From Clostridium beijerinckii (GTDB taxonomy: Bacteria; Bacillota; Clostridia; Clostridiales; Clostridiaceae), in assembly GCF_036699995.1 (NCBI RefSeq), contig NZ_CP144906.1, positions 328,501 through 392,500 on the forward strand: a DNA stretch of 64,000 nt. Reading direction: 5' to 3'. This document shows positions 44,635 through 64,000 of the stretch, piece by piece. The notes under the pieces are model-generated. The model was not told where the DNA came from, did no database searches, and saw only the letters and a program-made list of their open reading frames with translations. The translations under genes and the position numbers were made by a program. Positions within the stretch are counted from its first letter, which is position 1, and each line of letters starts with the position of its first letter.

Positions 44635-44709
44635 GCGGAAATGACTCAACGGTAGAGTGCCACCTTGCCAAGGTGGAGGCTGCGGGTTCGAATCCCGTTT
44701 TCCGCTCCA
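44635..44709 (+). tRNA. tRNA-Gly(GCC), copy 1
   Basis: Acceptor GCGGAAA/TTTCCGC, anticodon loop TTGCCAA, encoded CCA. Confidence 0.95.
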
Positions 44710-45198: not shown

Positions 45199-45203
45199 AA
45201 TGA

Positions 45204-45278
45204 GCGGAAATGACTCAACGGTAGAGTGCCACCTTGCCAAGGTGGAGGCTGCGGGTTCGAATCCCGTTTTCCGCTCCA
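45204..45278 (+). tRNA. tRNA-Gly(GCC), copy 2
   Basis: Identical to 44635-44709. Confidence 0.95.
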
Positions 45279-48187: not shown

Positions 48188-48294
48188 TAAATCAATGGAA
48201 TAAATAGAGAATAAAAGCAATACATTGATAAAATTGGTATAATGACGTAATATGACGTAAAGATATCGTTGCTATTATAAACATTATGACGTAA
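48171..48294. promoter_or_regulatory. Cluster of repressor operators (TGACGTAA)
   Basis: Exact TGACGTAA at 48243-48250, 48253-48260 and 48287-48294, and its complement TTACGTCA at 48171-48178. Weaker relatives lie at about 48151-48170. The first rightward copy abuts the extended -10 of the early promoter. Confidence 0.8.
48235..48243 (+). promoter_or_regulatory. Early rightward phage promoter (extended -10)
   Basis: TGGTATAAT is an extended -10 with no good -35. Two operator copies follow immediately, so the repressor would block it. Confidence 0.7.
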
Positions 48295-48345
48295 TATGTA
48301 CTTGTAAGCAAAAAACATGCAAGTAAGCAAACGAAGAGGTGGAGA

Positions 48346-48573: not shown

Positions 48574-48574
48574 G

Positions 48575-48814: not shown

Positions 48815-48879
48815 GTAATCTTTAAACATAATTTTGAAAAGGGTAAGTTAGTTAACTAAAAGTTAGGAGGAATTAAAAG

Positions 48880-49329: not shown

Positions 49330-49478
49330 ACAAAGTTGAAACGTGGACAAGCAAGGATAGAGTACCAGGACATAGAAAGATGGTAAGCTCTTATGATAAA
49401 GAACGTTCTGAGAAAGAACTTCAAAAGTTACCAAAAGAAAAAAGCTATAAGGATACCGACCAAAGTAATCCATTATAG
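49326..49478 (+). CDS. Small phage protein, 50 residues
   Basis: GTG 49326 overlaps the stop of the Spo0E-like gene (GTGA) with GGAGGGAG just before it, so it is translationally coupled. The product starts MNKVETWTSKDRVPGHRKMV and is highly charged (many Lys/Glu/Asp). No family recognised. The frame is open with a good start signal but short. Confidence 0.5.
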   Translation: MNKVETWTSKDRVPGHRKMVSSYDKERSEKELQKLPKEKSYKDTDQSNPL

Positions 49479-49518
49479 CCATACGTAAATATTCAACTCA
49501 ATTATATCACAAAGGAGT

Positions 49519-49776
49519 GTGATTGCAATTAAAAATTGGCATAAAGAAATTCAGCAAGCAAAAGAAGAAATAATTCAAGCTAAGAAAGATGCTTGGGTGA
49601 ATGAATGGAGATACAAAAATCCAAAAGCCATAGTAGTCCCAGTTCCACCCAATATTGAAATTAAAGCATGGTTTATAGGCCAATGGAACACTGGATTTGT
49701 ATGTGTAGCTATGGATGAACTTATGAAGTTGCCTAAAAAGCAAAGAGAAAAAATTTTAAAGCTGGGAGGGCTATAA
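49519..49776 (+). CDS. Hypothetical phage protein, about 85 residues
   Basis: Open frame reading IAIKNWHKEIQQAKEEIIQA then ...VVPVPPNIEIKAWFIGQWNTG and a basic C-terminus. The N-terminal part looks like a coiled coil. The start is unclear: GTG 49519 sits on top of the AAAGGAG site, and there is no ATG near the N-terminus, so an unusual ATT start at 49522 or 49528 is possible. Function unknown. Confidence 0.6.
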   Translation: MIAIKNWHKEIQQAKEEIIQAKKDAWVNEWRYKNPKAIVVPVPPNIEIKAWFIGQWNTGFVCVAMDELMKLPKKQREKILKLGGL

Positions 49777-49780
49777 GGTT

Positions 49781-50044
49781 ATGAGTAAACAAGTAGCACT
49801 TATTAGATTCACAAGAGGTAGTTTTGACCAAGAATACTCATATTTCACAGACATAGAAGATTTAAAAGAAGGTGACATATTAGTAGTTCCGACGAGCAAT
49901 TCATATTCTATAGGGGTTTTTAGCAGATATTCAAAAAGCAAGATTCATATTGATAAGGCAGAAAAGTGGATTGTTAAAAATATTAATTCAGACATTAAAG
50001 TTTTTGAAGAGAAAATGTTTTTAGAAGATCTAAAAAATGGATAA
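49781..50044 (+). CDS. Hypothetical phage protein, 87 residues
   Basis: Starts MSKQVALIRFTRGSFDQEYS four bases after the previous stop. The sequence has a beta-rich look (DILVVPTSNSYSIGVFSRYS), but no family is recognised. It is part of the tightly packed early operon; the next small gene overlaps its end. Confidence 0.65.
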   Translation: MSKQVALIRFTRGSFDQEYSYFTDIEDLKEGDILVVPTSNSYSIGVFSRYSKSKIHIDKAEKWIVKNINSDIKVFEEKMFLEDLKNG

Positions 50045-50198
50045 AAGGTTAACAAAAGCAGAGTTTATGCAGTTAGTAGTAAATGACTTATATAAGAAGA
50101 AGGCTAAGGAAAGAGAAAAACTTACTGGTGCAGATGCTCATGCAATTCAGAATATAAATAGAATTAAAGATTTCAGGAGGAAAAAATTATGCAAATAG
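50037..50198 (+). CDS. Small basic phage protein, 53 residues
   Basis: ATG 50037 overlaps the end of the previous gene by 8 bases. The product starts MDKRLTKAEFMQLVVNDLYK and is Lys/Arg-rich throughout, ending RIKDFRRKKLCK. It overlaps the start of the next gene by 10 bases. No family recognised; support is from open frame, packing and composition. Confidence 0.5.
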   Translation: MDKRLTKAEFMQLVVNDLYKKKAKEREKLTGADAHAIQNINRIKDFRRKKLCK

Positions 50199-50650
50199 TA
50201 TTAAATTCAATCGAGGAACTAAAGGAATTAACAGCACTTATTAATGGAAATACCCCATCTGTTGTAAATATTGGACAAGCAAAATTGGAGCAACTAAAGA
50301 AAGATATTAAACCCGCAGCTGAAAATCCTAAAAAGGAAAGGGTAGGAAATAAGAAAGAAGAAAAGGTTGATTCAAAGGGTGAAACTCCTAATGTGGAAGT
50401 TGAAGTTACAGGAATAGATACGACTACTGAAGAATTACCGAAGGATGCGGATATTAAGGGAGAAAATACAGCCGATGCTGAAGTTAATATTACTAAGGAA
50501 ATGGTTAGAGAAAAATTTAATCAAGTTGTTAAATCTGGAAAGCAAAAAGAAGCTAAGGCCTTAATTGAAAACCTTGGAGCTAAAAAACTATCTGATGTTA
50601 AACCAGAAGATTATGCAGCTCTTATAAAAGAGGCGGAGGCATTACTATAA
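50189..50650 (+). CDS. Hypothetical phage protein with an acidic linker
   Basis: A 153-residue protein starting MQIVLNSIEELKELTALING after AGGAGG. Residues 1-35 and 105-153 look folded and helical (EMVREKFNQVVKSGKQKEAK then IENLGAKKLSDVKPEDYAAL), joined by a Lys/Glu/Thr-rich linker. The C-terminal part resembles small domains in phage replication-module proteins. Function unknown. Confidence 0.72.
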   Translation: MQIVLNSIEELKELTALINGNTPSVVNIGQAKLEQLKKDIKPAAENPKKERVGNKKEEKVDSKGETPNVEVEVTGIDTTTEELPKDADIKGENTADAEVNITKEMVREKFNQVVKSGKQKEAKALIENLGAKKLSDVKPEDYAALIKEAEALL

Positions 50651-50916
50651 TGGCAAATTTAGTAGGTATAGTAAACAAGCCACAATTTGATGTTGATACA
50701 TTTACTGTTGGTAAGGCTATTCATGTAAAGCAATGGGCCAAGAGTAATGGGTACAAAATAAAGGATTTAGATGGTCTTATAAAAGAGATAGATCCACTTC
50801 GCATACACATATGGTTATTTAATGAAGGCGATGATGATTGTGATTACATTGTAATAACTATATCAGAAGTGGTCAGTGAAGAATACGAATTAACATTAAT
50901 GCAGGAGGTAAAGTAA
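50650..50916 (+). CDS. Hypothetical phage protein, 88 residues
   Basis: Starts MANLVGIVNKPQFDVDTFTVGK; its ATG overlaps the previous stop (TAATG). Ends in an acidic stretch GDDDCDYIVITISEVVSEEYEL. No family recognised. Overlap on both sides (ATG of the next gene overlaps its stop) marks it as part of a coupled set. Confidence 0.7.
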   Translation: MANLVGIVNKPQFDVDTFTVGKAIHVKQWAKSNGYKIKDLDGLIKEIDPLRIHIWLFNEGDDDCDYIVITISEVVSEEYELTLMQEVK

Positions 50917-52064
50917 TGGCAGCACACGCAAAATTATCTGCAAGTTCTTCTCATAGGTGGTTAATGTGTACGCCTAGTGTTGAACTAGAAAAGGGCTTTG
51001 AAAATAAAACAAGTACAGCAGCAGAAGAGGGAACACTAGCTCATGAGCTTGGAGAATTGAGCTTGAGATATCAACTTGGGGAAATAACTAAGAGATCTTA
51101 TGACAGTAAAGTAAAGAAGCTTATAACTAACAATGATCTGTATACAAATGATATGCCAGATTATGTTGAAATTTATACAGATGTTTGCATAGAGAAAGTT
51201 GCAAAAGCTAAAGCAACAACACCTGATGCAATTGCAATTGTTGAACAAAGACTTGATTTTTCTGAATGGGTTCCAGACGGATTTGGAACTGGCGACTTTG
51301 TAATAATTGCAGATGGAACAATGGAAATTTGTGATTTGAAGTATGGTAAAGGTGTTCCAGTTTCAGCAGTAGGAAATACACAAATGAGGTTATACGCTCT
51401 TGGAGCAATAACAGAGTTTTCGTTTTTATATGATATTCAAAATGTAAAAATGACAATTATACAACCAAGACTTGATTCAATAAGCACTGATGAAATATCA
51501 ATTGATGAACTTATAAAATGGGCAGATGAATATGTTAAACCTAGAGCACAACTTGCAATTAAAGGTGAAGGAGAATTATGTGCAGGAGAACACTGTAAAT
51601 TCTGCAAAGCACAGGCTATATGCAAAGCTAAAGCTGAGTATAATATGGAACTTGCAGGATATGAATTTGCAGAAAGTAAGCTTTTAAGTCAAGAAGAGAT
51701 TGCAGATATATTAGGAAGAGTTGATGATCTTGTAGGTTGGGCCACAAAGATAAAAGAATATGCTTTAGATCAAGCCTTAAGTGGAGTTAATTATCCAGGT
51801 TATAAAGTCGTTGAAGGTAGAAGTAATAGAAAGTGGACAGATGAAAAGAAAGTTGGAGAGATACTTATTGAACAAGGTTTCTTGGAAAATATTATTTACA
51901 CTAAAAAGCTTACAGGCATATCAAATATGGAAACAGCTATAGGTAAAAAAGAGGTTCAGAGATTGCTAGGAGAATATATTGAAAAGCCACAAGGTAAACC
52001 AACTTTAGCACCTGAAGGTGATAAAAGACCAGTATTTAATTCAGCAATAGAAGATTTTAAGTAA
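50916..52064 (+). CDS. DUF2800 protein, RecB-type nuclease fold
   Basis: A 382-residue protein starting MAAHAKLSASSSHRWLMCTPSVELEK, the standard opening of DUF2800. Around 100-170 come IVEQRLDFSEWVPDGFGTGD and MEICDLKYGKG, with acidic residues and Lys as in PD-(D/E)XK nucleases. A cysteine set CAGEHCKFCKAQAIC near 222-236 may bind an Fe-S cluster as in Cas4/AddB-type nucleases. It is encoded with DUF2815 and the polymerase, so it probably acts in phage recombination or replication. Confidence 0.82.
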   Translation: MAAHAKLSASSSHRWLMCTPSVELEKGFENKTSTAAEEGTLAHELGELSLRYQLGEITKRSYDSKVKKLITNNDLYTNDMPDYVEIYTDVCIEKVAKAKATTPDAIAIVEQRLDFSEWVPDGFGTGDFVIIADGTMEICDLKYGKGVPVSAVGNTQMRLYALGAITEFSFLYDIQNVKMTIIQPRLDSISTDEISIDELIKWADEYVKPRAQLAIKGEGELCAGEHCKFCKAQAICKAKAEYNMELAGYEFAESKLLSQEEIADILGRVDDLVGWATKIKEYALDQALSGVNYPGYKVVEGRSNRKWTDEKKVGEILIEQGFLENIIYTKKLTGISNMETAIGKKEVQRLLGEYIEKPQGKPTLAPEGDKRPVFNSAIEDFK

Positions 52065-52137
52065 AAATTAAATATGCCATAGCAGAGGGCATTGTACTCT
52101 GGTGAAATAAAAAATTAAAATTTTGGAGGAAATTATT

Positions 52138-52698
52138 ATGATAAATGCAAAGCGCACAGGCACAAAGGTTACTACAGGAAAGGTTAGATTGAGTTATGTT
52201 CATCTAGCTGAACCACATGCATTAGAGGGTAATGAGCCTAAATATAGTGTATCTGTAATAATCGATAAAAATGATAAATCAACACTTACTGCTATAAAAG
52301 AAGCAACAGCAGAAGCAAAAGAAAATGGGAAGTCTAAATGGGGAGGAAAAGTTCCACCTACTTTAAAAATACCTTTAAGAGATGGAGATGTTGAAAGACC
52401 AGATGATCCAGCATATTCAGGATGCTATTTCTTAAATGCAAGTAGTAAGATGAAACCAGGAGTTGTAGATGCAAGTGCACATCCAATTATGGATGTAGCA
52501 AGTGAAGTATATAGTGGCTGCTATGGAAGATTAACACTTAACTTCTATGCTTATAATGCAGCCGGAAACAAAGGGGTCGCATGTGGTTTAGGCAATGCTC
52601 AAAAATTGGAAGATGGTGAGCCATTAGGTGGATTTACAAGAGCAGAAGATGATTTTGATGCAGTAGAATCAGATACTGATGATTCATTCTTAGTTTAG
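52138..52698 (+). CDS. DUF2815 protein, probable ssDNA-binding protein
   Basis: A 186-residue protein; ATG 52138 follows TGGAGGA, while an in-frame TTG 15 bases upstream lies before the site. It starts MINAKRTGTKVTTGKVRLSYVHL and ends with an acidic tail (DDFDAVESDTDDSFLV) like that of single-strand-binding proteins. DUF2815 regularly sits between DUF2800 and the phage polymerase. An SSB-like role is an inference from fold type, tail and context. Confidence 0.82.
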   Translation: MINAKRTGTKVTTGKVRLSYVHLAEPHALEGNEPKYSVSVIIDKNDKSTLTAIKEATAEAKENGKSKWGGKVPPTLKIPLRDGDVERPDDPAYSGCYFLNASSKMKPGVVDASAHPIMDVASEVYSGCYGRLTLNFYAYNAAGNKGVACGLGNAQKLEDGEPLGGFTRAEDDFDAVESDTDDSFLV

Positions 52699-52702
52699 AA
52701 TT

Positions 52703-54664
52703 ATGGATATTCTAAGCATAGATGTTGAAACATATTGTGACTTAGATATTAAAAATGTGGGTGCTTATAGATACTGTGAGCACCCATCTTTTGAAATATT
52801 GCTGTTTGCATATGCTTTCAATGATGAACCAGTAGAAATTTTAGATTTTACAGATTTTGATTTATTGCCAGAAAGAGTTTTAAAAGCTCTTGAAGATCCA
52901 CAAGTAATTAAAAGTGCATTTAATGCTAACTTTGAAAGAAATGCTATTTATAGATTTCATGACCTTCTTATGGTGCCAGAGCAATGGCAATGTACTATGA
53001 TTAAAGCTTTAACTTTAGGTTTACCAAGTTCACTTGATATGGTTGGTAAGGCATTACACTTTCCAGAGAATAAACAGAAGATGAAAGAAGGTAAATCACT
53101 TATTCAATACTTTTGTAAGCCATGTAAGCCTACTAAAGCAAATGGTCAAAGAGTTAGAAACTTACCGGAAGATGCACCAGATAAATGGGAAACATTTAAA
53201 TTATATTGTAAGCAAGACGTTGAAGTTGAAAGAGATATAAGAAATAAATTAAGCAGATATAAAACTTTAGATAAAGAACAAAGGCTTTGGGAATTAGATC
53301 AGCATATTAATGATAGGGGAATTAATACAGATTTAGAACTTATATCAAAAGCTATTGACTGTGATGAACAATATAAAGAAAGACTAGTGAATGAAGCAAT
53401 AGAGTTAACAGGGCTAAGCAATCCCAACAGTCCAGCTCAATTGAAAGAGTGGATAGGGCAAAGGTTAGGATATGCAGTTGGAAGTATAAATAAAGATATT
53501 ATGCCAACTTTAATAAAAGATGCTGAGCTTCAAGGAAAAGATGAAGTAAAAAGAATATTAGAACTAAGGCAGCTTATGGGAAAAACCTCAACAAAGAAAT
53601 ATAAAACAATGATTGATATGAGATGTGATGATGGAAGAGTAAGAGGACTGTTACAGTTCTATGGTGCTAATAGAACTGGCAGATGGGCAGGACGTGGAGT
53701 TCAAGTTCAGAACCTTCCACAAAACCATTTACCGGACTTAGATGATGCTAGAAATTATGTAAAGAATGGTGATTTTGATATAGTTGAACTCTTATATGAT
53801 AGTGTTTCAGATACGTTAAGCCAGCTTATAAGAACTGCATTTATCCCGGCTGATGGAAATAGATTTATAGTTGCGGACTTCAGTGCTATAGAAGCAAGAG
53901 TTATAGCGTGGCTTGCTGGGGAACAATGGAGACTAGAAGTTTTTAATAATAATGGTGATATCTATTGTGCATCTGCATCTAAGATGTTTAAGGTACCAGT
54001 AGAAAAGCATGGTATAAATGGACATCTAAGGCAAAAGGGAAAAATAGCAGAGTTGGCACTTGGTTATGGCGGAAGCGTTGGAGCTCTTACAAGCATGGAC
54101 AAGAAAAAAGATATTCCAGAAGCAGAACTTCCGGGTTTAGTGAGGGATTGGAGAAATGCAAATCCTAAGATAACTAAGTTTTGGTGGGATGTTGATAAAG
54201 CAGCTAAGAAAGCAATTCATGAAAGAACTACAGTTGAGTTACATCATGGGATTAAGTTTATATATGATCCAGGAGTTTTATTCATTCAATTACCAAGTGG
54301 TAGAAGATTATCTTATATAAAACCAAAGATTGAAGCAGGTCCATATGATAAGAACATTATAACATATGAGGGGATGGAACAAACCTCAAAACAATGGACA
54401 ACATTAGAAACTTACGGTCCAAAGCTAGTCGAGAACATTGTTCAAGCTGTAGCAAGAGACTGTTTAGCAGAGGCCATGTTTAAAGTTACTAAAGCAGGAT
54501 ATGACATTGTAATGCATGTACATGATGAAATTATTATGGATATATCTAAAGACTTTGGAAGTATAGAAGCAGTTAATGCAATATTTGGTGAATCTATTGA
54601 ATGGGCTAACGGATTACCGCTTAGAGCAGATGGTTATAAATGTGATTATTACATGAAGGATTAA
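52703..54664 (+). CDS. Phage DNA polymerase, family A (PolA-like)
   Basis: A 653-residue polymerase. The N-terminal 3'-5' exonuclease starts MDILSIDVETYCDLDIKNVGAY with the Asp/Glu pair and a later KQDVEVERDI segment. The polymerase part has motif A VADFSAIEARVIAWLAGE near 390, motif B RQKGKIAELALGYGGSVGAL and motif C VMHVHDEIIMD near 605. It should replicate the phage genome. The ATG is 4 bases after the DUF2815 stop with only a weak ribosome-binding site, so translation is probably coupled. Confidence 0.94.
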   Translation: MDILSIDVETYCDLDIKNVGAYRYCEHPSFEILLFAYAFNDEPVEILDFTDFDLLPERVLKALEDPQVIKSAFNANFERNAIYRFHDLLMVPEQWQCTMIKALTLGLPSSLDMVGKALHFPENKQKMKEGKSLIQYFCKPCKPTKANGQRVRNLPEDAPDKWETFKLYCKQDVEVERDIRNKLSRYKTLDKEQRLWELDQHINDRGINTDLELISKAIDCDEQYKERLVNEAIELTGLSNPNSPAQLKEWIGQRLGYAVGSINKDIMPTLIKDAELQGKDEVKRILELRQLMGKTSTKKYKTMIDMRCDDGRVRGLLQFYGANRTGRWAGRGVQVQNLPQNHLPDLDDARNYVKNGDFDIVELLYDSVSDTLSQLIRTAFIPADGNRFIVADFSAIEARVIAWLAGEQWRLEVFNNNGDIYCASASKMFKVPVEKHGINGHLRQKGKIAELALGYGGSVGALTSMDKKKDIPEAELPGLVRDWRNANPKITKFWWDVDKAAKKAIHERTTVELHHGIKFIYDPGVLFIQLPSGRRLSYIKPKIEAGPYDKNIITYEGMEQTSKQWTTLETYGPKLVENIVQAVARDCLAEAMFKVTKAGYDIVMHVHDEIIMDISKDFGSIEAVNAIFGESIEWANGLPLRADGYKCDYYMKD

Positions 54665-54682
54665 TACAGGAAGGTGAAAATT

Positions 54683-55057
54683 ATGGAGGATTTAAAAATA
54701 TGTCCATTTTGTGGCCATGAAGTTGTAAAGACATCTAATAAAGAGATTTACGGAAAAGAATATGGTAATGGAGTTTGTTATTTATGTAGAAACTGTAAGG
54801 CTTCAGTAGGAACACATCCAGATGGAAGACCATTGGGCATACTAGCTAATAGGGAAATGAAAATATTAAAAAAAGCGTGTCATGATCTATTTGATTATGT
54901 TTGGAAAACCAATAAAATGCCAAGGAATAGTGCTTACGAGGTGTTAAGTAACAAGCTTGAAATAGATGTGAAAGACTGTCACTTTGGGCATTTTGATACA
55001 GAAACATTATTGAGAGCATTAAAAGTATTAGCTGATAGTAATTGGTATATAGTTTAG
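54683..55057 (+). CDS. Zinc-finger-containing protein (DUF3268-like)
   Basis: A 124-residue protein. ATG 54683 follows AGGAAGGTGA; an in-frame GTG lies inside that site. A zinc ribbon CPFCGHEV...CYLCRNC is at about 7-37, then SVGTHPDGRPLGILANREMKILKKACHDLFDYVWK, which matches the DUF3268 pattern found beside phage polymerases. Probably nucleic-acid binding; function unknown. Confidence 0.8.
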   Translation: MEDLKICPFCGHEVVKTSNKEIYGKEYGNGVCYLCRNCKASVGTHPDGRPLGILANREMKILKKACHDLFDYVWKTNKMPRNSAYEVLSNKLEIDVKDCHFGHFDTETLLRALKVLADSNWYIV

Positions 55058-55096
55058 TGCTAAATCTGTAAAAATGGCGAAGGAGTGAAAAATAAA

Positions 55097-55273
55097 ATGA
55101 TAGCGAAAGAATTAATGGAAAAAATACAAAAATACCCAGGCTTTGAAGTTGTATTCTGTTTCATAGAGGACAATAAAAAGCATGAAAACTTTGAAACACG
55201 AACATTTTCTAATTTGTGTGTTAAAGATGTAGAAATACATAAATTAGAAAAACGAATTGTAATATGTGAATAA
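55097..55273 (+). CDS. Small hypothetical phage protein
   Basis: 58 residues from ATG 55097 (MIAKELMEKIQKYPGFEVVF); an in-frame GTG at 55085 overlapping GGAG would add four. It resembles the next small gene in layout (helix, then short beta strands). No family recognised. Confidence 0.6.
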   Translation: MIAKELMEKIQKYPGFEVVFCFIEDNKKHENFETRTFSNLCVKDVEIHKLEKRIVICE

Positions 55274-55311
55274 TTTTAAATTCACAATACTAAAATTTTT
55301 GGAGGTAAAAA

Positions 55312-55515
55312 ATGAAAATAAGTGAAGCAATGTTAATAATGCAAGAAACTTTAAAAGGGTATGGAGATTTGGATTTAAAAATACAAGTTTTAGATTATGA
55401 AGCTGGTGAAACAATAGAAAAATATGTTAATGAAATAGAGCTAGAGCATAGAATAACAACTTCAAGAGAATCTAAAAATTGCAATGTGTTAGTAATAAGT
55501 GATGGAAACAAGTAA
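55312..55515 (+). CDS. Small hypothetical phage protein, 67 residues
   Basis: Starts MKISEAMLIMQETLKGYGDL after TTGGAGG, a strong site. A helix then beta strands (LDLKIQVLDYE, CNVLVISDGNK). The pattern EAMxxMQETLKGYGDLDLKIQV looks like a short all-in-one domain, but I know no function. Confidence 0.65.
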   Translation: MKISEAMLIMQETLKGYGDLDLKIQVLDYEAGETIEKYVNEIELEHRITTSRESKNCNVLVISDGNK

Positions 55516-55555
55516 TACGCCACACTAAAATTTGAAGCTGGAAGGATGAAATAAT

Positions 55556-55732
55556 ATGGATGTTAGTAAATTATTAATTATAATGCCTAAATATGAAAAA
55601 TGCCCTAAGTGTGGTAGCGATAGAGTAGGAAATGGACAAGGTAAATTAATAATAGAAGAAGATTATTACTATAGAGAATGTAGGTGTGGTTGGAGCATCA
55701 AAATTGATAATGAAGGTGAAGAACTAGATTAA
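55556..55732 (+). CDS. Small zinc-ribbon protein, 58 residues
   Basis: ATG 55556 preceded by GGAAGGATG. Reads MDVSKLLIIMPKYEKCPKCG, then ...YYRECRCGWSIKIDNEGEELD. Two Cys pairs (CPKCG and CRCG) about 25 residues apart form a zinc ribbon. It fits between packed genes. Probably nucleic-acid binding. Confidence 0.68.
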   Translation: MDVSKLLIIMPKYEKCPKCGSDRVGNGQGKLIIEEDYYYRECRCGWSIKIDNEGEELD

Positions 55733-55763
55733 TTAAATGAAAAATAACAAGGAGGTTCTACTT

Positions 55764-58208
55764 ATGAATCCTGACGATATTCAAGAAGATATAAAAATTA
55801 AATATGATGGCATGGTAACTCTCGCAACTGGTGAAGGTAAGTGGGCAAAAAAATGGAAAAATAAAAATGTATTATGGTCTAAAGTAGTTAAAAGATTAAG
55901 TAGAACCACCAGAACAGTAGAGAGTTACGTTGAATATAAAAAGATGGCTAAAACTGATAAAGATAAAGCTAAAGATGTAGGCGGATTTGTTGGTGGTGGA
56001 CTTAAGAATGGCAGACGTAAGGCTGAAAATGTGGCTAACAGAACAATGCTTACATTAGATATAGATTATGCAAAGGGTGATGTGTGGGCAGGTATAGAAG
56101 TCTTATGGGACTTTTCAGTTATTATGTATTCAACTCATTCGCATTCGCCTGAAAATCAAAGATTAAGATTAGTAATTCCTTTATCAAGACCAGTTCTTCC
56201 AGATGAATATCAAGCTATATCCAGAATGATAGCAAATGAATTAGGAATGGATCTATTCGATGATACAACTTATGAACCATCAAGGTTAATGTTTTGGCCA
56301 TCGACTTCAAGAGATGGAGAATATGTATTTAAATTTCAAGATGGAAAATGGTTAGATGCGGATGAAGTATTGGGTAGATATACTTTTGGTTGGCAGGATG
56401 TAAGTTATTGGCCTGAAAGTTCAAGAGCTAGAGCAAGATTAAATTCAGCTATTAAGAAACAAGAGGATCCATTAGAAAAGAAAGGTATCATAGGTGCTTT
56501 CTGTAGAACCTATTCGATTACTGATGCAATAGCAGAATTTCTAAAAGATGTATATATTCCAGGTACAGATGAAACAAGATATACCTATGCAGAAGGTAGT
56601 ACATCTGGTGGACTAGTTGTATATGATGATAAATTCAGTTTCTCACACCATGGTACAGATCCAACAAGCGGAATGCTATGTAATGTGTTTGATTTAGTTA
56701 GGATTCATAAATTTAGAGAACTTGATGAAGACTCAAAGCCTGATACTCCTGTAAATAGACTACCATCATTTCTTAAAATGTCAGAGTTTGCAGCTAATGA
56801 TAATGAGGTTAGAAAAACATTAGGCAAAGAGCGTATGGAGAAGGCTCAAGAAGACTTCGAGGCAGTTGAAATAAATGAAGAATCAGAGACAAAATGGCTT
56901 GAAGAACTCGAATATACAGAACGTGGTAAGTTAAAAAGTACAATAAATAATATTCTTTTAATTATAGAAAATGAACCACTTTTAAAAGGTAAAATAGCTT
57001 ACGATGAATTTTCTAATAGAGCTACAGTTATTGGACAATTACCTTGGAGAAAAGATATAAACATCTTAGACTGGTCAGACAGTGATGATAGCGGACTTAG
57101 AAGTTTTATAGAAAAAATATATGAAATATCAGCTCCTTCAAAGGTAAATGATGCTTTAACAATAGCCTTCCAAAAACATACATTCCATCCGGTAAGAGAT
57201 TATTTGAATAGTCTAAATTGGGATGGTGTAAGTAGGATAGATACTCTATTTATAGATTACTTGGGAGCTGAAGATTGTAATTATGTAAGAACAGTTACAA
57301 GAAAAGTTTTAACTGCAGCAGTTGCTAGAGTTTTTAAACCAGGCATTAAATTTGATAATATGCTTATTTTAAGTGGTAAGCAGGGAGTAGGTAAAAGTAC
57401 CATAATTAGAAAGTTAGGCAAGGATTGGTATTCTGATTCATTAACAACTGTAAGCGGAAAAGAAGCATATGAACAATTACAAGGAGTATGGATATTTGAA
57501 ATGGCTGAAATGATGGCTACAAAAAAGGCAGATATTGAAGCTACAAAACACTTTTTAAGTAAAACGGAAGATATATACAGAGTTGCATATGGTAAAAGGA
57601 CAAGTAGATTTTTAAGGCAATGTATATTCATTGGAACAAGTAATGAACATGAATTTCTAAGAGATAAGACTGGAAATAGAAGATTTTGGCCGATAGATAT
57701 ATACAATCAAGAGCCTACAAAGGACGTATTCAAAGTAAGTAAGGATAAGATTCATCTGGATGATGAAATAGATCAAATATGGGCAGAAGCAGTTCAGTTA
57801 TTTAAAAATAATGAACCTTTATATTTATCAGGTGAAGAAGAAAAAGAAGCACAGAAACAACAAGAATCCCATTCAGAGGAAAGTGCAAAGTCTGGACTTA
57901 TACAAGAGTACTTAGAAATATTATTACCTGAAGACTGGTATAAGTTAGATTTATCTGAAAGAAGAAATTATATACAGGGTAATGAATTTGGTGATTCTAA
58001 AGTAGGTACTATGCAAAGGACAAAGACTTGTGTAATGGAAATATGGGTTGAACTTTTCAATGGGGATCCTAAACAATTAACACCAATTGTATCAAGAGAA
58101 ATTAATGATATTCTAAAAGGTCTTAATGGATGGACTAAATATGATAAAGGTCTTTTAAAATTCGGAAAAGTTTATGGAACTCAAAGAGCCTTTGTGAGGG
58201 AGAAATAA
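55764..58208 (+). CDS. Primase/VapE-type helicase fusion protein
   Basis: An 814-residue protein; ATG 55764 follows AAGGAGGT, and an in-frame ATG 27 bases upstream precedes that site. The N-terminal 260 residues resemble phage primases (RTMLTLDIDYAKGDVWAGIE with Asp-x-Asp, then STHSHSPENQRLRLVIPLSR). The C-terminal virulence-associated E domain (about 430-740) has Walker A LSGKQGVGKSTIIRKLG near 540, the Walker B region GVWIFEMAEMMATKK and GTSNEHEFLRDKTGNRRFWPI. It probably primes and unwinds DNA at the phage origin. Confidence 0.88.
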   Translation: MNPDDIQEDIKIKYDGMVTLATGEGKWAKKWKNKNVLWSKVVKRLSRTTRTVESYVEYKKMAKTDKDKAKDVGGFVGGGLKNGRRKAENVANRTMLTLDIDYAKGDVWAGIEVLWDFSVIMYSTHSHSPENQRLRLVIPLSRPVLPDEYQAISRMIANELGMDLFDDTTYEPSRLMFWPSTSRDGEYVFKFQDGKWLDADEVLGRYTFGWQDVSYWPESSRARARLNSAIKKQEDPLEKKGIIGAFCRTYSITDAIAEFLKDVYIPGTDETRYTYAEGSTSGGLVVYDDKFSFSHHGTDPTSGMLCNVFDLVRIHKFRELDEDSKPDTPVNRLPSFLKMSEFAANDNEVRKTLGKERMEKAQEDFEAVEINEESETKWLEELEYTERGKLKSTINNILLIIENEPLLKGKIAYDEFSNRATVIGQLPWRKDINILDWSDSDDSGLRSFIEKIYEISAPSKVNDALTIAFQKHTFHPVRDYLNSLNWDGVSRIDTLFIDYLGAEDCNYVRTVTRKVLTAAVARVFKPGIKFDNMLILSGKQGVGKSTIIRKLGKDWYSDSLTTVSGKEAYEQLQGVWIFEMAEMMATKKADIEATKHFLSKTEDIYRVAYGKRTSRFLRQCIFIGTSNEHEFLRDKTGNRRFWPIDIYNQEPTKDVFKVSKDKIHLDDEIDQIWAEAVQLFKNNEPLYLSGEEEKEAQKQQESHSEESAKSGLIQEYLEILLPEDWYKLDLSERRNYIQGNEFGDSKVGTMQRTKTCVMEIWVELFNGDPKQLTPIVSREINDILKGLNGWTKYDKGLLKFGKVYGTQRAFVREK

Positions 58209-58486
58209 TGGAAGAAAGTAGAGTTGAAAGATATCTAAAAAAGCAGGTTGAGAAAATAGGTGGTAAGGCTTATAAATGGAATCCAACTGGAGTAATAGGA
58301 GTACCAGATAGAATGGTGCTCTTACCTGTCGGAAAAGTTGTATTTATAGAATTAAAGGCGCCTGGTGAAAAACCTAGGAAAATTCAAGAATATAGGGCAA
58401 AAGAGCTTAGAAAGTTAGGTTTTTTGGTTGAGTGTTTAGATACAGTTGAAAAAGTAGATTTGTTTATAGAAAATGTGAGGAAGTGA
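58208..58486 (+). CDS. VRR-NUC domain nuclease
   Basis: A 92-residue stand-alone VRR-NUC protein: EKIGGKAYKWNPTGVIGVPDRMVLLPVGKVVFIELKAPGEKP, with Asp in PDR and Glu-x-Lys in ELKAP as PD-(D/E)XK metal ligands. Its ATG overlaps the previous stop. Such small nucleases accompany VapE and SNF2 genes in many Firmicutes phages and may cut branched DNA intermediates. Confidence 0.93.
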   Translation: MEESRVERYLKKQVEKIGGKAYKWNPTGVIGVPDRMVLLPVGKVVFIELKAPGEKPRKIQEYRAKELRKLGFLVECLDTVEKVDLFIENVRK

Positions 58487-58491
58487 GAGTA

Positions 58492-58839
58492 GTGAAATTA
58501 GAATTTAGAGCAGTTGAATTAAAGGAAGATTCTAAGTGGCTAGAAAAAATGAAGATACAAACAGAGCTGTTAAAAGCAAATAATAATTTAAGATGTGAAA
58601 TGAGAAATGAATTTATTATAGTTGGTGAAGAAAGCATAGAAAATGAAGAATATTATAAGGTTAATCAGCTTAATGAAAGTGGATTATCTATCTTTGGAGG
58701 TTTAGATTTAGCAACCATATCTCTATCAATTCCTAAAAAAGAATTTAAGTGGGATGGGGAAACATTCACAATATTAGATGTTCCTAAAGAAAATTTAACT
58801 ATAGATTTAATAGATGATATTAAAAGATTAAACTATTAA
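58492..58839 (+). CDS. Hypothetical phage protein, 115 residues
   Basis: GTG 58492 has GAGGAAG eight bases upstream; an alternative GTG at 58483 lies inside that site. Starts MKLEFRAVELKEDSKWLEKM. No family recognised. It lies between the VRR-NUC and helicase genes. Confidence 0.65.
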   Translation: MKLEFRAVELKEDSKWLEKMKIQTELLKANNNLRCEMRNEFIIVGEESIENEEYYKVNQLNESGLSIFGGLDLATISLSIPKKEFKWDGETFTILDVPKENLTIDLIDDIKRLNY

Positions 58840-58881
58840 TTTGTTGCATAATACCAGAAATTTTAAGTTAGAAAGAAGGTG

Positions 58882-60268
58882 ATGAATATGAACTTTATCC
58901 CATGGAATTATCAAGAATATGCAATTAATCATGTAATTGAACATGATGCTGCAGGTCTTTTTCTCGATATGGGAATGGGTTAGCTAAGGCAAAACTGTAA
59001 GCACTTTAACAGCAATAGAATTATTAAAATACGATTATCTTGAAATAAATAGAGTTCTTGTTATAGCCCCAAAGAGAGTTGCAGAAGATACATGGTCAAC
59101 GGAAGTTGAAAAGTGGGACCATCTTAATCATTTAAGAATATCTAAAGTGCTCGGAACTCAAAAAGAAAGAATGGCTGCGCTAAGAAAAGATGCAGATGTA
59201 TATGTTATTAATAGAGAAAATGTAGAATGGTTAGTAAGTTATTTATCTAAAGATTGGTTCTTTGATATGTGTGTCATAGATGAATTAAGTTCTTTTAAAT
59301 CAAGTAAAGCTCAAAGGTTCAGAGCATTAAGAAAAGTAAGACCATATTTTAAAAGAATTATAGGACTTACTGGAACACCTGCACCAAATTCATTAATAGA
59401 CTTATGGCCGCAGATTTATTTACTAGATGGTGGTCAAAGATTAGGCAGAACAATCACAGGATATAAGGAGCAGTATTTTAAGCCAGGAGATAGAAATGGT
59501 CATATAGTTTATAACTGGAATCTTAAAGAAGGCTCAGAGGAGACAATTCACAATAAAATATCTGATATATGTATTTCAATGATGGCTAAAGATTACCTAG
59601 ACTTACCTGAAAGAATTGATAATAAGGTTTATGTAAATCTACCAAAGAAAGCATTGGATCAGTACAAGGAACTTGAAAGAGACTTAATAATTGAACTAGA
59701 TAATGAAGATATAACAGCAACTAATGCTGCAGTACTTGCAGGTAAGTTACTTCAAATGTCCAATGGCGCAATATATTCAGAATCTAAGGAAGTAATGGAA
59801 ATTCATGAGGAAAAGCTTAATGCATTGCTAGACCTTATTGAAGCAGCCAATGGAAAACCAGTTCTTATATTTTATAATTTCCAACATGATAAAGATAGGA
59901 TATTAGCATTTCTTACTAAGAATAAATATAAAGGTAAAGTGCTTGGAGGAAGTGAGGATATTAAAGCTTGGAATGAGGGTAACATATCAATACTTCTAAC
60001 ACATCCAGCTTCAGCAGGCCATGGACTTAACTTACAGTATGGAGGGAACATTGTTGTATGGTTTGGGTTAACGTGGAGTTTAGAATTGTATCAACAAGCT
60101 AATGCGAGATTATATAGGCAAGGGCAAAAGAAGACAGTTATTATTCACCATTTAATAGCTAAAGGGACAGTTGATGAAGATGTAATTAAGGCATTAAGTG
60201 GTAAAGAAATTAATCAGAATTTACTTTTAGAAGCGGTAAAGGCAAGAATGAAAAGTACCAAATATTAG
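58882..60268 (+). pseudogene. SNF2-family helicase interrupted in the Walker A motif
   Basis: From ATG 58882 (after AAGAAGGTG) the frame reads MNMNFIPWNYQEYAINHVIE then ...GLFLDMGMG and stops at TAG 58981. The downstream frame opens at 58988 with GKTVSTLTAIELLK and runs to 60268 without defects: DEAH-like CVIDELSSFK, GLTGTPAPNSLIDLWPQIY, and motif VI YQQANARLYRQGQKKTV. Removing 10 nt (58981-58990) joins the parts as DMGMG-KTVST, an exact P-loop, giving 458 residues. Either this is a recent inactivating insertion, or the ribosome bypasses the block from GGT to GGC. The gene follows VRR-NUC as in related phages. Listed as a pseudogene because the coding sequence is broken as written. Confidence 0.85.
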
Positions 60269-60289
60269 GATAACAAGATGGATTTAAGA

Positions 60290-60543
60290 GTAAACAAAGT
60301 AAACAAATTCTGCTTTGGGGATATTTGGAATAGTAAACAAAGTAAACACAATTTTTTCTTCTGTTTACCCTTTTGTTTACCCTTAAAACGTGATAATACC
60401 AATGCTTAAAGTACAAAGGTAAACAAAGTAAACAAAATAATATATATAAGTTATAAATAGTAAATTAGGTATATATGTATACATCTAATACGCCTAATAC
60501 GTATACGTATATAGAAAAAAGTAAATTTTGTTTACTTGTTTAC
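60290..60543. repeat. Paired GTAAAC repeats beside AT-rich DNA, candidate phage origin
   Basis: GTAAACAAAGTAAAC occurs at 60290-60304, 60333-60347 and 60419-60433; the reverse orientation appears as GTTTAC pairs at 60363-60380 and 60530-60543. Between the third direct copy and the last inverted pair is almost pure A/T with short palindromes (CGTATACG). The 350 bases from 60269 to 60618 contain no gene. Iterons plus an AT-rich unwinding region suggest a replication origin; a regulator-binding array is the alternative. Confidence 0.6.
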
Positions 60544-60618
60544 CCCAAATATTGTAAATAAGTTTGTAAATATGAAAAGATTAAAAAAAATTAAATGTGA
60601 AGGTAGGGAAATATAGGG

Positions 60619-60969
60619 ATGAAATTATTGATGCATATATTAACAAAAAATTACAATTTAAATATAGATAATGCAACTTTAAGTTCAAAAGAAATAATCG
60701 ATAAAACACAGGAAGAGTTTAACGAAGTAATTGAAGCAATAGAAATTTATGAAGTTGATAAATCGCTTATGCATTTGAAGGAGGTCATAAGAGAAACGTT
60801 TGATTTAATCCAGATGTGCATTTTGATTTTATGGAGGTGTCATAGAAGAGCTTTGACTTTTGATGAACCAAATTTAATTCAGGAGATTAACCTTGAACAT
60901 AAAGACAAGCTTATAGGTGAAAGACATTGGACCGTAGAAACTGGGATTGAAATTGATGTAAAGGAGTAG
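60619..60969 (+). CDS. MazG-like nucleotide pyrophosphohydrolase
   Basis: A 116-residue all-alpha protein. KTQEEFNEVIEAIEIYEVDK followed by LKEVIRETFDLIQMCI matches the ExxE...ExxD metal-binding pattern of MazG-type NTP pyrophosphohydrolases. It may clean the nucleotide pool during phage growth or affect alarmone levels. GTAGGGAAATATAGGG precedes the ATG, so the ribosome-binding site is weak. Confidence 0.75.
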   Translation: MKLLMHILTKNYNLNIDNATLSSKEIIDKTQEEFNEVIEAIEIYEVDKSLMHLKEVIRETFDLIQMCILILWRCHRRALTFDEPNLIQEINLEHKDKLIGERHWTVETGIEIDVKE

Positions 60970-60975
60970 ATGTAC

Positions 60976-61530
60976 ATGGAGAATAAAAAATTAATAAACT
61001 ATGATGAAGCAGTGAGAATTGGTGTCAGAGAAGGAATAAAATATATTAAAGAGCAGGAATATCATAAAACAACGAAAAGATATGATAGGAGATTAAGAAA
61101 TACAAGGCTATTATTAAAACATTATAGAACTCTAAAGGCACATAATAAGATTGCTGATAGCTCTATCAATAATGTTTATGAAGAGAATGCAGTTGATGTA
61201 TTAGACGATATTGAGGCAATAGATGATGAAGAACAATATGTGCAATCATTAGGCAGAACAAAAATAAGGACGATGATAATTGTGGGTCATATAAATAAAG
61301 CTATGAAATATTATCAATCTATTTGTGAAAGCGAAGGTAAAAATCAAGAAAGAAGATATAACATAGTTAAATATATGTATATTGATACAAGAGATGCTGA
61401 TATCACTCCAAGTTATGATGAAGTGTCAGAAAGATTTGGCTTAAATATAAGAACTGTTGGACGAGATTTAAGAGCCGCTATAGAAGATTTAAGTATATTG
61501 TTTTTCGGTATTGATGGAATAAAATTATAA
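60976..61530 (+). CDS. Sigma-70-like / ArpU-type late transcription regulator
   Basis: A 184-residue protein; ATG 60976 has AAGGAG nine bases upstream and the ATG at 60970 is too close to it. The N-terminal half is highly basic and helical; the C-terminal 40 residues form a sigma region 4-like HTH (PSYDEVSERFGLNIRTVGRDLRAAIEDL). Proteins like this lie just before terminase in many Firmicutes prophages and switch on the packaging and structural genes. A good promoter lies about 120 bases downstream. Confidence 0.78.
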   Translation: MENKKLINYDEAVRIGVREGIKYIKEQEYHKTTKRYDRRLRNTRLLLKHYRTLKAHNKIADSSINNVYEENAVDVLDDIEAIDDEEQYVQSLGRTKIRTMIIVGHINKAMKYYQSICESEGKNQERRYNIVKYMYIDTRDADITPSYDEVSERFGLNIRTVGRDLRAAIEDLSILFFGIDGIKL

Positions 61531-61651
61531 AAAAGTTTTTCAAAAGTGTAAAAATATTATCAAATTTTGTCCTTGACAAAATACTGAAAAGTGAGGGAAT
61601 AAGCCAAAACTTATAAAAATACTGTTTGAAATTATGTCCTTTAGTGTGGAA

Positions 61652-61680
61652 TTGACGTGCTTTTTATAATAAGGTAATAT
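61652..61680 (+). promoter_or_regulatory. Candidate late promoter before terminase
   Basis: TTGACG (61652-61657), 17 bases, TAATAT (61675-61680), 139 bases before terS. It may need the upstream sigma-like protein. Confidence 0.65.
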
Positions 61681-61710
61681 GGTATCAAGGAATTTTATAA
61701 ATTAAACATA

Positions 61711-61787
61711 AACCAGTAGAAACAAAAAATATATTTGAAAGAAGGTGGATCCCTCCACTAGCACAAGTATATGGTGGCCTACTGGTT
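61711..61787 (+). promoter_or_regulatory. Structured leader before terS
   Basis: AACCAGTAG (61711-61719) pairs perfectly with CTACTGGTT (61779-61787), enclosing 59 bases that contain a second hairpin GTGGA/TCCAC (about 61745-61758). It lies in the transcribed leader of the late operon. Function unknown. Confidence 0.5.
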
Positions 61788-61818
61788 TATTCTTATAAAA
61801 GAAAGTGAGGTGGCATTA

Positions 61819-62346
61819 ATGGCCAAGCTAACAGAAAAACAAAAGCTGTTTTGTGATGAATATTTAATTGATCTTAATGTCACGCAAGCAGCAATAAGAG
61901 CAGGATATAAAGCTAAATATGCAGACTCTCAGGCATATAAATTATTAGATAATACAGAGATAAAAGACTATATTGATAAGCGTATGAAGGATAGACAGGA
62001 AAGAACTGAGATAACTCAGGATATTATCTTGGAAGAGTTAAGAAGAATAGCATTAGCAAAGCCAACTGACTTCTTTGAGGTTGAGGATATGGGACAGTAT
62101 AAGAGAGTTAATATCGTCCCAACAAAGGACATTCCAGAAGATAAGATTGGAGCTATAGCAAGTATAAAGCAAGGTGCTAATGGTATAGAAGTTAAGCTTC
62201 ATGATAGACTCAAGGCATTAGAGCTTATTGGAAGGCACTTAGGAATGTTCAAGGATAAGGTTGAAATAACGGATGGGAACAGCAGTGTTAATGTAAACAT
62301 AGATGATATGCTTAATGAGATTAAGAAAGATAACTTTAAAAAGTAG
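61819..62346 (+). CDS. terS: Terminase small subunit
   Basis: A 175-residue protein; ATG 61819 follows GAGGTGG. The N-terminal HTH is LTEKQKLFCDEYLIDLNVTQAAIRAGYKAKYADSQAYKLL, the classic opening of this family, and the C-terminus has KLHDRLKALELIGRHLGMFKDKVEI. It recognises the phage packaging site and loads the large subunit. The large subunit begins at 63640, separated by a resolvase and one small gene. Confidence 0.95.
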   Translation: MAKLTEKQKLFCDEYLIDLNVTQAAIRAGYKAKYADSQAYKLLDNTEIKDYIDKRMKDRQERTEITQDIILEELRRIALAKPTDFFEVEDMGQYKRVNIVPTKDIPEDKIGAIASIKQGANGIEVKLHDRLKALELIGRHLGMFKDKVEITDGNSSVNVNIDDMLNEIKKDNFKK

Positions 62347-62347
62347 T

Positions 62348-62460
62348 GTTTCACTAGAGTATACTACAGTGAAACAATTAAATAATAACTAAATATATTT
62401 CAATAGAGTTGTATAAATAATTTTGAAATGTTTCATAATAAACATTGACTTCAATGAAAC
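62348..62460. repeat. Three-part res-like site before the resolvase gene
   Basis: Three inverted repeats share an RTTTCA arm. I: GTTTCACT...AGTGAAAC (62348-62375, 28 bp) with central palindrome AGTATACT and an AT at the exact centre. II: ATTTCAAT...TTTGAAAT (62397-62429, 33 bp). III: GTTTCATA...AATGAAAC (62430-62460, 31 bp). Size, order and spacing resemble the Tn3-family res site. Confidence 0.7.
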
Positions 62461-62473
62461 ACATTGATATAAT
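62445..62473 (+). promoter_or_regulatory. Resolvase promoter, overlapping subsite III
   Basis: TTGACT (62445-62450), 17 bases, TATAAT (62468-62473). The -35 lies inside subsite III of the res-like region, so resolvase binding would repress its own gene. Confidence 0.8.
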
Positions 62474-62493
62474 AATACTATAGAAGATACATA

Positions 62494-62556
62494 GGAGCAG
62501 ATACAAGAGGGGTACCTTCTAAATCTGGAAAGTCATTTCGACTGGCGACTAGCTCC
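62494..62556 (+). promoter_or_regulatory. Structured leader of the resolvase gene
   Basis: GGAGC (62494-62498) pairs with GCTCC (62552-62556), enclosing a hairpin around GAGGGGTACCTTC and a second around AGTCATTTCGACT. It lies fully within the predicted leader. No known riboswitch class is recognised. Confidence 0.4.
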
Positions 62557-62595
62557 ATAAAATTTTCTAGTATTTTTTTAGAAGGAAGTGTTTTT

Positions 62596-63195
62596 ATGAG
62601 AATATATGGTTATTCAAGAGTTAGCACAAAGGATCAAAATTTAGATAGACAATTAGTTGAACTTAAGAAGTTTGTAGAAGATAGATTTATATTCCAGGAT
62701 AAATTAAGTGGAAAAGATTTTGATAGACCTCAATACCAGCTCATGAGAAAAGTTGCTCAAAAAGGCGATACCATTTATGTTAAATCTTTAGATAGACTTG
62801 GTAGAAATAAGAGCCAAGTCAAAGAAGAACTTGAGTACTACAAAAATGAAGGTGTTAGAGTAAAAGTTCTAGACATACCTACTACTATGATGGATATACC
62901 AGAAGGTCAAGAGTGGCTTATGGATATGATTAATAATTTACTTATCGAAGTTCTAGCAACTATGGCAGAACAGGAAAGAGTTAATATTAAACAACGTCAG
63001 GCTGAAGGCATTGCAATCGCTAAAGAAAAAGGTGTATATAAAGGTCGCAAGAAAATTGAAGTTGATGATACATTCAAGAAATCCTATGACCAGTGGAAAG
63101 CTGGAGAGATAACTGCTGTAAAAGCCATGGAACTTACTGGGCTTAAAAGAAATACATTCTACAGAAGAGTTTCAGAATATGAAGAAAATAGGTGA
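62596..63195 (+). CDS. Small serine recombinase (resolvase/invertase family)
   Basis: A 199-residue Tn3/Hin-type recombinase. The N-terminus MRIYGYSRVSTKDQNLDRQL has the catalytic Ser10 and Arg8; KSLDRLGRN carries further active-site Arg residues; a long E-helix follows (LLIEVLATMAEQERVNIKQR), and a C-terminal HTH DNA-binding domain (GEITAVKAMELTGLKRNTFYRRV). AGAAGGAAG precedes the ATG. It sits between terS and terL, with a res-like region directly upstream. It could resolve genome multimers, invert DNA or be a passenger of a small mobile unit. Confidence 0.93.
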   Translation: MRIYGYSRVSTKDQNLDRQLVELKKFVEDRFIFQDKLSGKDFDRPQYQLMRKVAQKGDTIYVKSLDRLGRNKSQVKEELEYYKNEGVRVKVLDIPTTMMDIPEGQEWLMDMINNLLIEVLATMAEQERVNIKQRQAEGIAIAKEKGVYKGRKKIEVDDTFKKSYDQWKAGEITAVKAMELTGLKRNTFYRRVSEYEENR

Positions 63196-63209
63196 GTGGA
63201 GTTGATCAA

Positions 63210-63566
63210 ATGATTAATAAAAATAGGGTTCAGTGTGAAAAATGTAAAGCTGAATTAAATTTAAAAAAGATACCTATAGAGTCTAAACATATTGGAGAAA
63301 TTAGAATACAGTTCTTTAGGTGTCCTTCATGTTATGAGAAATATTTAATTGATGTTACTGATAAGGCAACTAGAGAAAAGCAAATTGAGTATGCTAGGTT
63401 AGGAACTTATCAAAAGCAATTAATGGAATCAGTAAATAAAGATAATTTAGAAGCTATTGAGCAATTAACATTAAAAAATAAAGATAAAATGGAAGTTTTA
63501 CTAAAAGAAATTAAAGATACTAAAGCAATGTTAAAAGAAAAATATGGCACGGAATTAAATAATTAA
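63210..63566 (+). CDS. Zinc-ribbon and coiled-coil protein of unknown function
   Basis: A 118-residue protein; ATG 63210 has GAGTGGAG eight bases upstream, while a GTG at 63192 overlaps the resolvase stop. Residues 7-40 have CEKCKAEL...CPSCYEKY, a zinc ribbon; the rest is a long charged helix (LEAIEQLTLKNKDKMEVLLK). Its stop codon lies at the edge of the following terminator. It travels with the resolvase and may be its partner or a separate morphogenesis gene. Confidence 0.72.
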   Translation: MINKNRVQCEKCKAELNLKKIPIESKHIGEIRIQFFRCPSCYEKYLIDVTDKATREKQIEYARLGTYQKQLMESVNKDNLEAIEQLTLKNKDKMEVLLKEIKDTKAMLKEKYGTELNN

Positions 63567-63594
63567 GCACTTAGAATTATCTAGGTGCTTTTCT
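63564..63594 (+). terminator. Terminator after the resolvase unit
   Basis: AAGCACTTAG (63564-63573 region) pairs with CTAGGTGCTT (63581-63590) with one G-T, then TTCTT. It separates the resolvase/zinc-ribbon pair from terL. Confidence 0.68.
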
Positions 63595-63639
63595 TATGCC
63601 TAAAATTTAAATTCTTATAGAAAGGGTGTGCTATAGCAA

Positions 63640-64000
63640 TTGATATATTTTGATAATAAGCAATTTGATACTGAAATTAAATACGATGTGTATTTATTAA
63701 AAAAATATTTATCTGAACATTATGATGAAGATACAGCTATAGCTCTACTTAAGAATAACAGCTCAGATCTTGATAAATTAGCTAAAGCTTTAGGTGAAAT
63801 TGATGTAGAATTCTTTTGTTTGTATTTTATGAGTGATATTTTTGTTCCAAAAGGAATAAATGATGATGGAAGTTATCCAGAAGACCATATACCTAATGTC
63901 GCTCGACAACTTTCTAAAGGTCATTATGAGTTATGGCAGGTTGCAAATGAAATATTCGTAGAGGATAAAAGAGATAAGGCTGCAATTATTGAACCCAGAG
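63640..64000 (+). CDS. terL: Terminase large subunit, N-terminal part
   Basis: Open to the right edge, 120 codons visible. TTG 63640 follows AAAGGGTG at 11 bases. Reads MIYFDNKQFDTEIKYDVYLL, then FCLYFMSDIFVPKG, and ends ...HYELWQVANEIFVEDKRDKAAIIEPR. In this family a P-loop (PRGxGKT type) would follow directly after IIEPR, just outside the window. It is the ATPase/nuclease that packages DNA into the capsid. The call is based on this N-terminal pattern and position after terS. Confidence 0.8.
   Translation, partial: MIYFDNKQFDTEIKYDVYLLKKYLSEHYDEDTAIALLKNNSSDLDKLAKALGEIDVEFFCLYFMSDIFVPKGINDDGSYPEDHIPNVARQLSKGHYELWQVANEIFVEDKRDKAAIIEPR

Follow-up and report, generated by a model that had tools for sequence, protein, structure and literature searches.

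Is the interrupted SNF2 helicase gene in a prophage of Clostridium beijerinckii a dead gene, or could its two pieces still be decoded as one protein? The locus lies in a stretch of 64,000 nucleotides (contig NZ_CP144906.1, positions 328,501 to 392,500; hereafter the window), which is part of a 5.55-Mb genome. The interruption is directly visible in the sequence: the first piece (58882..58983, + strand) starts with ATG at 58882 and extends over 33 codons to DMGMG, where it meets a TAG stop, and the second piece (58988..60268, + strand; 426 codons plus stop) opens at GGC with the start of the GKT motif and includes the SNF2 and helicase C domains. Searched separately, the two pieces matched adjoining parts of the single DNA helicase profile phrog_62, at positions 691-721 (E 1.7e-5) and 721-1142 (E 5e-165), respectively, which places both in one family; the second piece also matched the Pfam SNF2 domain. 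The proposed take-off codon, as judged from the window sequence and from codon use in relatives, is GGT (Gly; 58978..58980, + strand), followed on the same strand by TAG (58981-58983) and CTAA (58984-58987), which together occupy 58981..58987, and then by the proposed landing codon GGC (Gly; 58988..58990, + strand), likewise judged from the window and its relatives. The palindrome TTAGCTAA spans 58980-58987. The initial annotation had given the same positions for all these elements, a first piece ending in DMGMG and TAG and a remainder free of other stops, all of which holds in the window sequence (33 + 426 residues). The analysis below indicates that the gene is probably not dead, its structure being best explained by a recurrent, horizontally exchanged short translational bypass ("stop-hop") proposed from the sequence.

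The interruption in the window gene is neither unique nor random. Relatives were fetched with the downstream helicase piece as query; the first viral scan kept every match (77 loci), while the later viral and genome scans kept the best 80 each, so that prevalence is biased in the latter. In the complete scan the P-loop was covered in 74 of the 77 loci, and in 16 of these the gene was interrupted within the P-loop codons (L014 and L015 representing one sequence); a single additional locus, L064, was broken elsewhere. The L064 helicase is broken 53 codons past the P-loop and several of its neighbour genes have frame breaks as well, which marks it as a locus in decay or badly assembled and sets it apart from the interrupted ones. 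The enlarged set, including nine named phages, comprised 381 distinct genes, 316 of them intact and 65 interrupted within the P-loop codons, and truncations farther downstream were found in only three of the 381, over about 420 downstream codons. Unscored were 24 of 495 loci (P-loop end missing, too little upstream sequence or no usable + strand match). The 381 genes exclude the weak, mostly cellular SNF2 relatives L092-L110 and four loci that looked uninterrupted at the P-loop (L082, L083, L087, L089). Five genes flagged by the script (L161, L393, L395, L405, L480) were judged by eye to be natural variants and counted as intact; L498, in which the script misplaced the break (a stop follows GGT farther on), was counted as interrupted without an immediate stop.

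Interrupted helicases were present in Fusobacterium phage phiPaco, Christensenellales phage NatCom_6392 and Ruminococcus phage NatCom_23091, although the named phages had been picked partly for broken-looking matches and three of nine therefore gives no prevalence; further cases came from records of Clostridium guangxiense, Ruminiclostridium cellobioparum and Desulfosporosinus hippei. The initial annotation would have accepted a plain frameshift if all homologues lacked the 10 nt and there was no full-length product. The homologues do not all lack them: two relatives of the window gene, L004 and L052, are also interrupted by 10 nt, and their sequences almost match that of the window (after GGT, TAGCTAA and TAACTAG, respectively, compared to TAGCTAA in the window). 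As a control, the neighbour genes of the same loci showed 17 scattered frame breaks in 1.198 Mb aligned, three of them in interrupted loci, including two at CGG in L256; this control detects frame changes only and not in-frame stops, and 55 of the 65 P-loop cases change frame.

The position of the break was restricted to a few codons of the motif (A/G)LFLDMG(L/M)GKT: it followed the last Gly in 42 of the 65 genes, the preceding Leu/Met in 10 and the Gly before that in nine, and it stood before Asp in four. The interruptions were 1, 2, 4, 5, 6, 7, 8, 10 or 11 nt long and fell in all three phases (37, 18 and 10 genes), which rules out a single plain frameshift. A stop directly after the last in-frame codon was found in 57 of the 65 (TAG 30, TGA 24, TAA 3), compared to TAA 21, TAG 9 and TGA 35 at the natural ends of the same genes; the break stops thus avoid TAA (4/60 at or near the break vs 21/65 at natural ends) and favour TAG. 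A reassigned stop codon is also ruled out, since all three stops occur and read-through would lengthen the P-loop. The base after the break stop was C in 27 cases, G in 25, A in five and T in none; C in this position weakens termination.

The codon context of the break was likewise tight. GGT was used in 47 of the 51 interrupted genes with a Gly take-off codon vs 75 of 316 intact ones, and GGC stood three codons before the stop in all 34 genes whose interruption of 4-6 nt follows the last Gly vs 70 of 316 intact genes, the codons farther upstream not being fixed, with the exception of Met. Among the longer interruptions (10-11 nt), GGC occupied this position in three of seven, and the window has GGA there. 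The 6-nt types have layouts such as GGT TGA GGA (GGT TGA GGN). The proposed take-off usually lies at codon 29-33. The observed frequencies were compared with two nulls, random letters inserted at any phase and tandem duplication (relatedness was left uncorrected in these and in the Fisher comparisons). An immediate stop was observed in 87.7% vs 5.6% and 3.75%, respectively, and a GGT take-off codon in 72% vs 10.7% and 13.5%. Take-off and landing codons shared the middle base in 90.8% (59/65) vs 33% in the random null, while the duplication null reproduced 91%.

The pattern had been noted before two new viral scans were run with other queries, from which the best 80 loci each were kept; 27 of these 160 were skipped, leaving 133 distinct scored genes. 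Of 33 flagged genes, 12 were judged uninterrupted (11 in-frame variants and L703) and the remaining 21 were interrupted, every one after the last Gly. These 21 had an immediate stop in 20 cases, GGC at -3 in all 21 and GGT at -1 in 20; the Leu codon between them was TTA, TTG or CTC, as in the earlier set, or in one case CTG. Three uninterrupted genes of the fresh set had shortened downstream frames. One member of this set, L772, has the same site and codon context, with CCG where the others have the stop.

Selection on the two pieces was estimated by the ratio of nonsynonymous to synonymous substitution rates (dN/dS). For the downstream piece, dS was finite in 15 of 24 interrupted pairs, with dN/dS of 0.03-0.22: 0.043 for L170/L503 (dS 0.49), 0.133 for L114/L192 (dS 0.51), 0.032 for L421/L422, in which CGG stands where the stop is expected (dS 1.40), and 0.220 for the window gene and L004 (dS 0.70). 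In the fresh set, two groups of eight and four interrupted genes gave 0.035-0.137 at dS 0.23-0.64, and their members were closer to one another than to any intact gene compared. The N-terminal peptide was conserved to the same degree as in intact genes, with dN/dS over the 26 N-terminal codons of 0.157 in 47 interrupted pairs vs 0.161 in 239 intact pairs. By this sequence measure each piece is maintained like that of a functional helicase, and neither the relaxed selection nor the lesions spread over the gene that mark a pseudogene were found.

The interrupted state was linked to the N-terminal segment. Over the 84 nt upstream of the P-loop it changed 34 times, vs 49-56 times on nine downstream stretches of equal length (377 genes), and the nearest neighbour of an interrupted gene was itself interrupted in 40 of 65 cases when judged by the N-terminal segment (11 expected by chance) and in 26 by the downstream part. 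In 14 interrupted/intact pairs the N-terminal segment was less identical than the rest by 0.146, compared to 0.021 in 70 intact pairs (Mann-Whitney p = 1e-4) and 0.019 in nine interrupted pairs; an extreme example is L289 vs L288, with 99.9% identity downstream and 69% in the N-terminal segment. This drop and the neighbour pattern indicate that the interrupted allele travels together with the N-terminal segment, with an exchange edge near the P-loop. In a few of the 14 pairs (L044, L008, L251) the N-terminal segment differed hardly more than the rest, as would be expected after a fresh insertion, and L004 and L008 have different inserts while being about 94% identical.

From the recurrence, the codon context, the selection on both halves and the linkage to the N-terminal segment, which the sequence itself shows, we infer the following course of translation. 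The ribosome would translate the first 33 codons and reach the stop, which then occupies the A site while tRNA-Gly is paired with GGT in the P site; some passes, in a proportion that the sequence does not give, would see the peptidyl-tRNA dissociate, slide over a few bases, re-pair at GGC and resume, yielding one helicase with an unbroken Walker A motif. A signal of the same type, mostly GGC-Leu-GGT-stop with a short gap, recurs in the P-loop codons of SNF2 helicases in many phages and prophages and moves between them with the N-terminal segment by recombination. The use of the hop might be either to shield a conserved DNA site from a nuclease or to control helicase synthesis.

A number of observations weigh against this bypass. 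At least 53 changes of state are needed on the tree of the downstream protein, which makes many cases recent in the background where they now occur. The landing triplets are imperfect, sharing their first two bases with the take-off codon in only 26 of the 65 genes, and the commonest of them is AGC after GGT (21/65). As placed by the script, eight of the 65 had no stop directly after the take-off codon; L256 is explained by a shift at CGG (see below) and L498 by the misplacement, and the others remain. L228, one of the genes with CGG instead of the stop, uses CGG commonly and may be an error or a plain frameshift. L614, from the fresh set, meets a further stop after 35 codons, and dS was saturated in nine of the 24 interrupted pairs. 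Finally, RNA structure gave mean z-scores near 0 in six stretches, like in intact genes (plain shuffles, 100 intact genes sampled), and a stem-loop of the T4 type at the take-off site did not emerge from the shuffle test. The bypass suggested in the initial annotation, by analogy with T4 gene 60, is partly supported: the shared site, the stop after take-off, the GGT codon, the selection on both halves and the fresh set speak for it, a T4-like hairpin was not found and the full-length product is a prediction.

A plain inactivating insertion, recent or tolerated in a prophage, had been regarded in the initial annotation as the plainer explanation, and it does account for a frame broken inside an essential motif and for the frequent changes of state on the downstream tree. 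The recurrence, the context nulls and the selection speak otherwise: the breaks are confined to a few codons instead of lying along the gene, the immediate stop and GGT far exceed both nulls, dN/dS stays well under 1 for either piece, there are groups of interrupted genes whose closest kin lie within the group and three complete named phage records carry the interruption. We therefore regard a pseudogene as unlikely. A split protein, in which a peptide of 31-33 residues and the large second piece are made separately by reinitiation or from an internal start and cooperate, is about equally improbable. Two overlapping genes are indeed annotated in the phiPaco and NatCom_6392 records, and reinitiation is possible in the 5-nt TGA type, whose stop is overlapped by a TTG lying in the frame of the second piece (L503 595-598, L502 598-601). 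However, in 33 of the 65 genes the second frame has no ATG, GTG or TTG between 12 codons upstream and 10 codons downstream of the P-loop Lys, in the window this frame begins directly after TAA with its first listed start codon at 59147, and the split would separate Gly from Lys within the Walker A motif.

It is very unlikely that the pattern is purely mutational, with a sequence-specific nuclease or another DNA-level process hitting the P-loop codons and leaving small inserts. One short site with many different inserts and turnover between close relatives (L004/L008) would agree with it, but it predicts neither a stop right after a complete codon, nor GGT, nor selection on both pieces, and close interrupted/intact pairs have mostly exchanged their N-terminal segment instead of gaining a fresh insert; such a process may act together with bypass. 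Sequencing or assembly error, which a single genome could contain, is hardly credible for an interruption that turns up repeatedly, in contigs of viruses and of genomes as well as in records of named phages, and clusters among kin.

The cases with CGG where a stop is expected (5/65) form a separate type. Among the assigned codons of their loci CGG was absent in L237, rare in L421, L422 and L255 and common in L228. In L256, listed with ACG, the helicase gene has two +1 steps at CGG and the adjacent endonuclease gene two more, with no CGG among 1777 assigned codons. In a 400-kb sample of its uncultured clostridial host genome, G068, CGG was the rarest sense codon (47 of 90,231), and 60 candidate +1 changes were located at CGG, some of them plainly chance overlaps. 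Among the candidate stretches are those that we take to be FtsZ, ribosomal protein L4, PheT, a sporulation sigma factor, RadA and PlsY, each resuming on Gly; the two pieces of FtsZ, when searched, matched residues 17-109 and 110-259 of one solved chain, 4m8i. Judged from sequence, many G068 genes (loci L513-L532, L567 and L582, and L256 at 2687 and 2724) seem to move into the +1 frame at CGG, which would make CGGN a four-base codon for Gly, the case being carried by the rarity of CGG and the recognisable genes. Against such a shift stand the overlap count at CGG, which at 43 is not high beside 11-45 for eight other codons, and an uninterrupted GroEL. Besides a normal tRNA-Gly(UCC) with the loop CTTCCAA, G068 has a second tRNA-Gly with the loop CTTCCGA, whose UCCG could read CGGN. 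This second tRNA was matched at 76-100% in 31 of 40 family genomes sampled (G068 included), seven at 100%, and the odd loop was present in four of nine relatives' loci inspected, on the one strand scanned. The sampled parts of G069 and G071, two other genomes with CGG-type cases, showed no such CGG pattern. In the sections available, a survey of alternative codes (PMC8629427) has CGG reassigned only as a triplet.

The window prophage has an integrase at its start, adjoining a tRNA array, and a replication region with, according to PHROG profiles, an exonuclease, a DNA polymerase, a primase/helicase, an endonuclease and the SNF2 helicase. The primase/helicase gene (55737..58208, + strand; phrog_256) is intact. 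The endonuclease gene (58208..58486, + strand) matched phrog_93, and its matching neighbour in phages LunBun and Emery is annotated as VRR-Nuc; a gene of this kind also adjoins intact helicases in kin, no systematic search for homing endonucleases having been made. A 118-residue frame between the endonuclease and helicase genes (58483-58839) had no PHROG match. The tRNA search found two tRNA-Gly(GCC) genes on the + strand (44635..44709 and 45204..45278), which would read both GGT and GGC. In total, 19 tRNA genes are present at 43610-45500, partly repeated (Gln-Lys-Leu-Gly-Gly twice), next to the prophage integrase. A second close helicase copy was found neither in the genome of the window nor in six records with interrupted genes, three of which are virus contigs and may be fragments. 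The exact window junction did not occur in the viral contigs, no named phage matched the window closely by DNA over 45000-64000, and the plasmid search gave three records, none spanning 80% of the helicase gene.

A further step is more tentative and somewhat short of an even chance: the helicases might represent a widespread natural class of short hops, in which GGC-Leu-GGT-stop and a few bases within the Walker A codons form a compact recoding cassette that is exchanged horizontally. The cassette would keep a sequence-specific nuclease off the gene's most conserved DNA, or hold helicase synthesis down, leaving the protein unchanged. If true, such a family in scores of phages, with alleles that occur naturally both with and without the interruption, gaps spanning 1-11 nt and little freedom in the codon context, would be comparative material on which the requirements of hopping could be tested directly, and phage genes set aside as frameshifted could be functional. 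Among the open-licence PMC papers listed by the literature searches none dealt with such interruptions in phage helicases, and in the available main text of a frame-transition survey (PMC3711429) the word "helicase" occurs zero times.

Very few natural bypassing cases are named in the accessible sections of a 2016 review (PMC5009743). The interrupted genes share their family and profile coverage with the phrog_62 phage DNA helicases, yet 316 of the 381 distinct genes have an uninterrupted P-loop. With T4 gene 60 they have in common a stop right after a Gly take-off codon, a Gly landing codon, a function in phage DNA metabolism and two frames separated by a non-coding gap, as well as an early take-off, at codon 46 in T4 according to the sections seen of PMC5009743 and PMC11194080. 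In contrast to gene 60, with its gap of 50 nt, the helicases have gaps of only 1-11 nt, no hairpin signal and imperfect landing triplets, and they are distributed over many phages and hosts. The T4 insert is thought to have protected its site from a homing nuclease (PMC5009743, in part). The byps in mitochondria of Magnusiomyces capitatus, as described in the same sections, similarly involve many short inserts to be skipped, take-off and landing sites that are not always matched and a poorly read codon in the A site, but they occur in most mitochondrial genes of that organism, while the helicase cases are limited to one gene and one motif in phages of bacteria. The synthetic stop-hops of Escherichia coli, also covered there, place matched codons on either side of a stop; the review, in those sections, knew of no in-frame case in nature, whereas the 6-nt types of the helicases have exactly that layout in natural genes.
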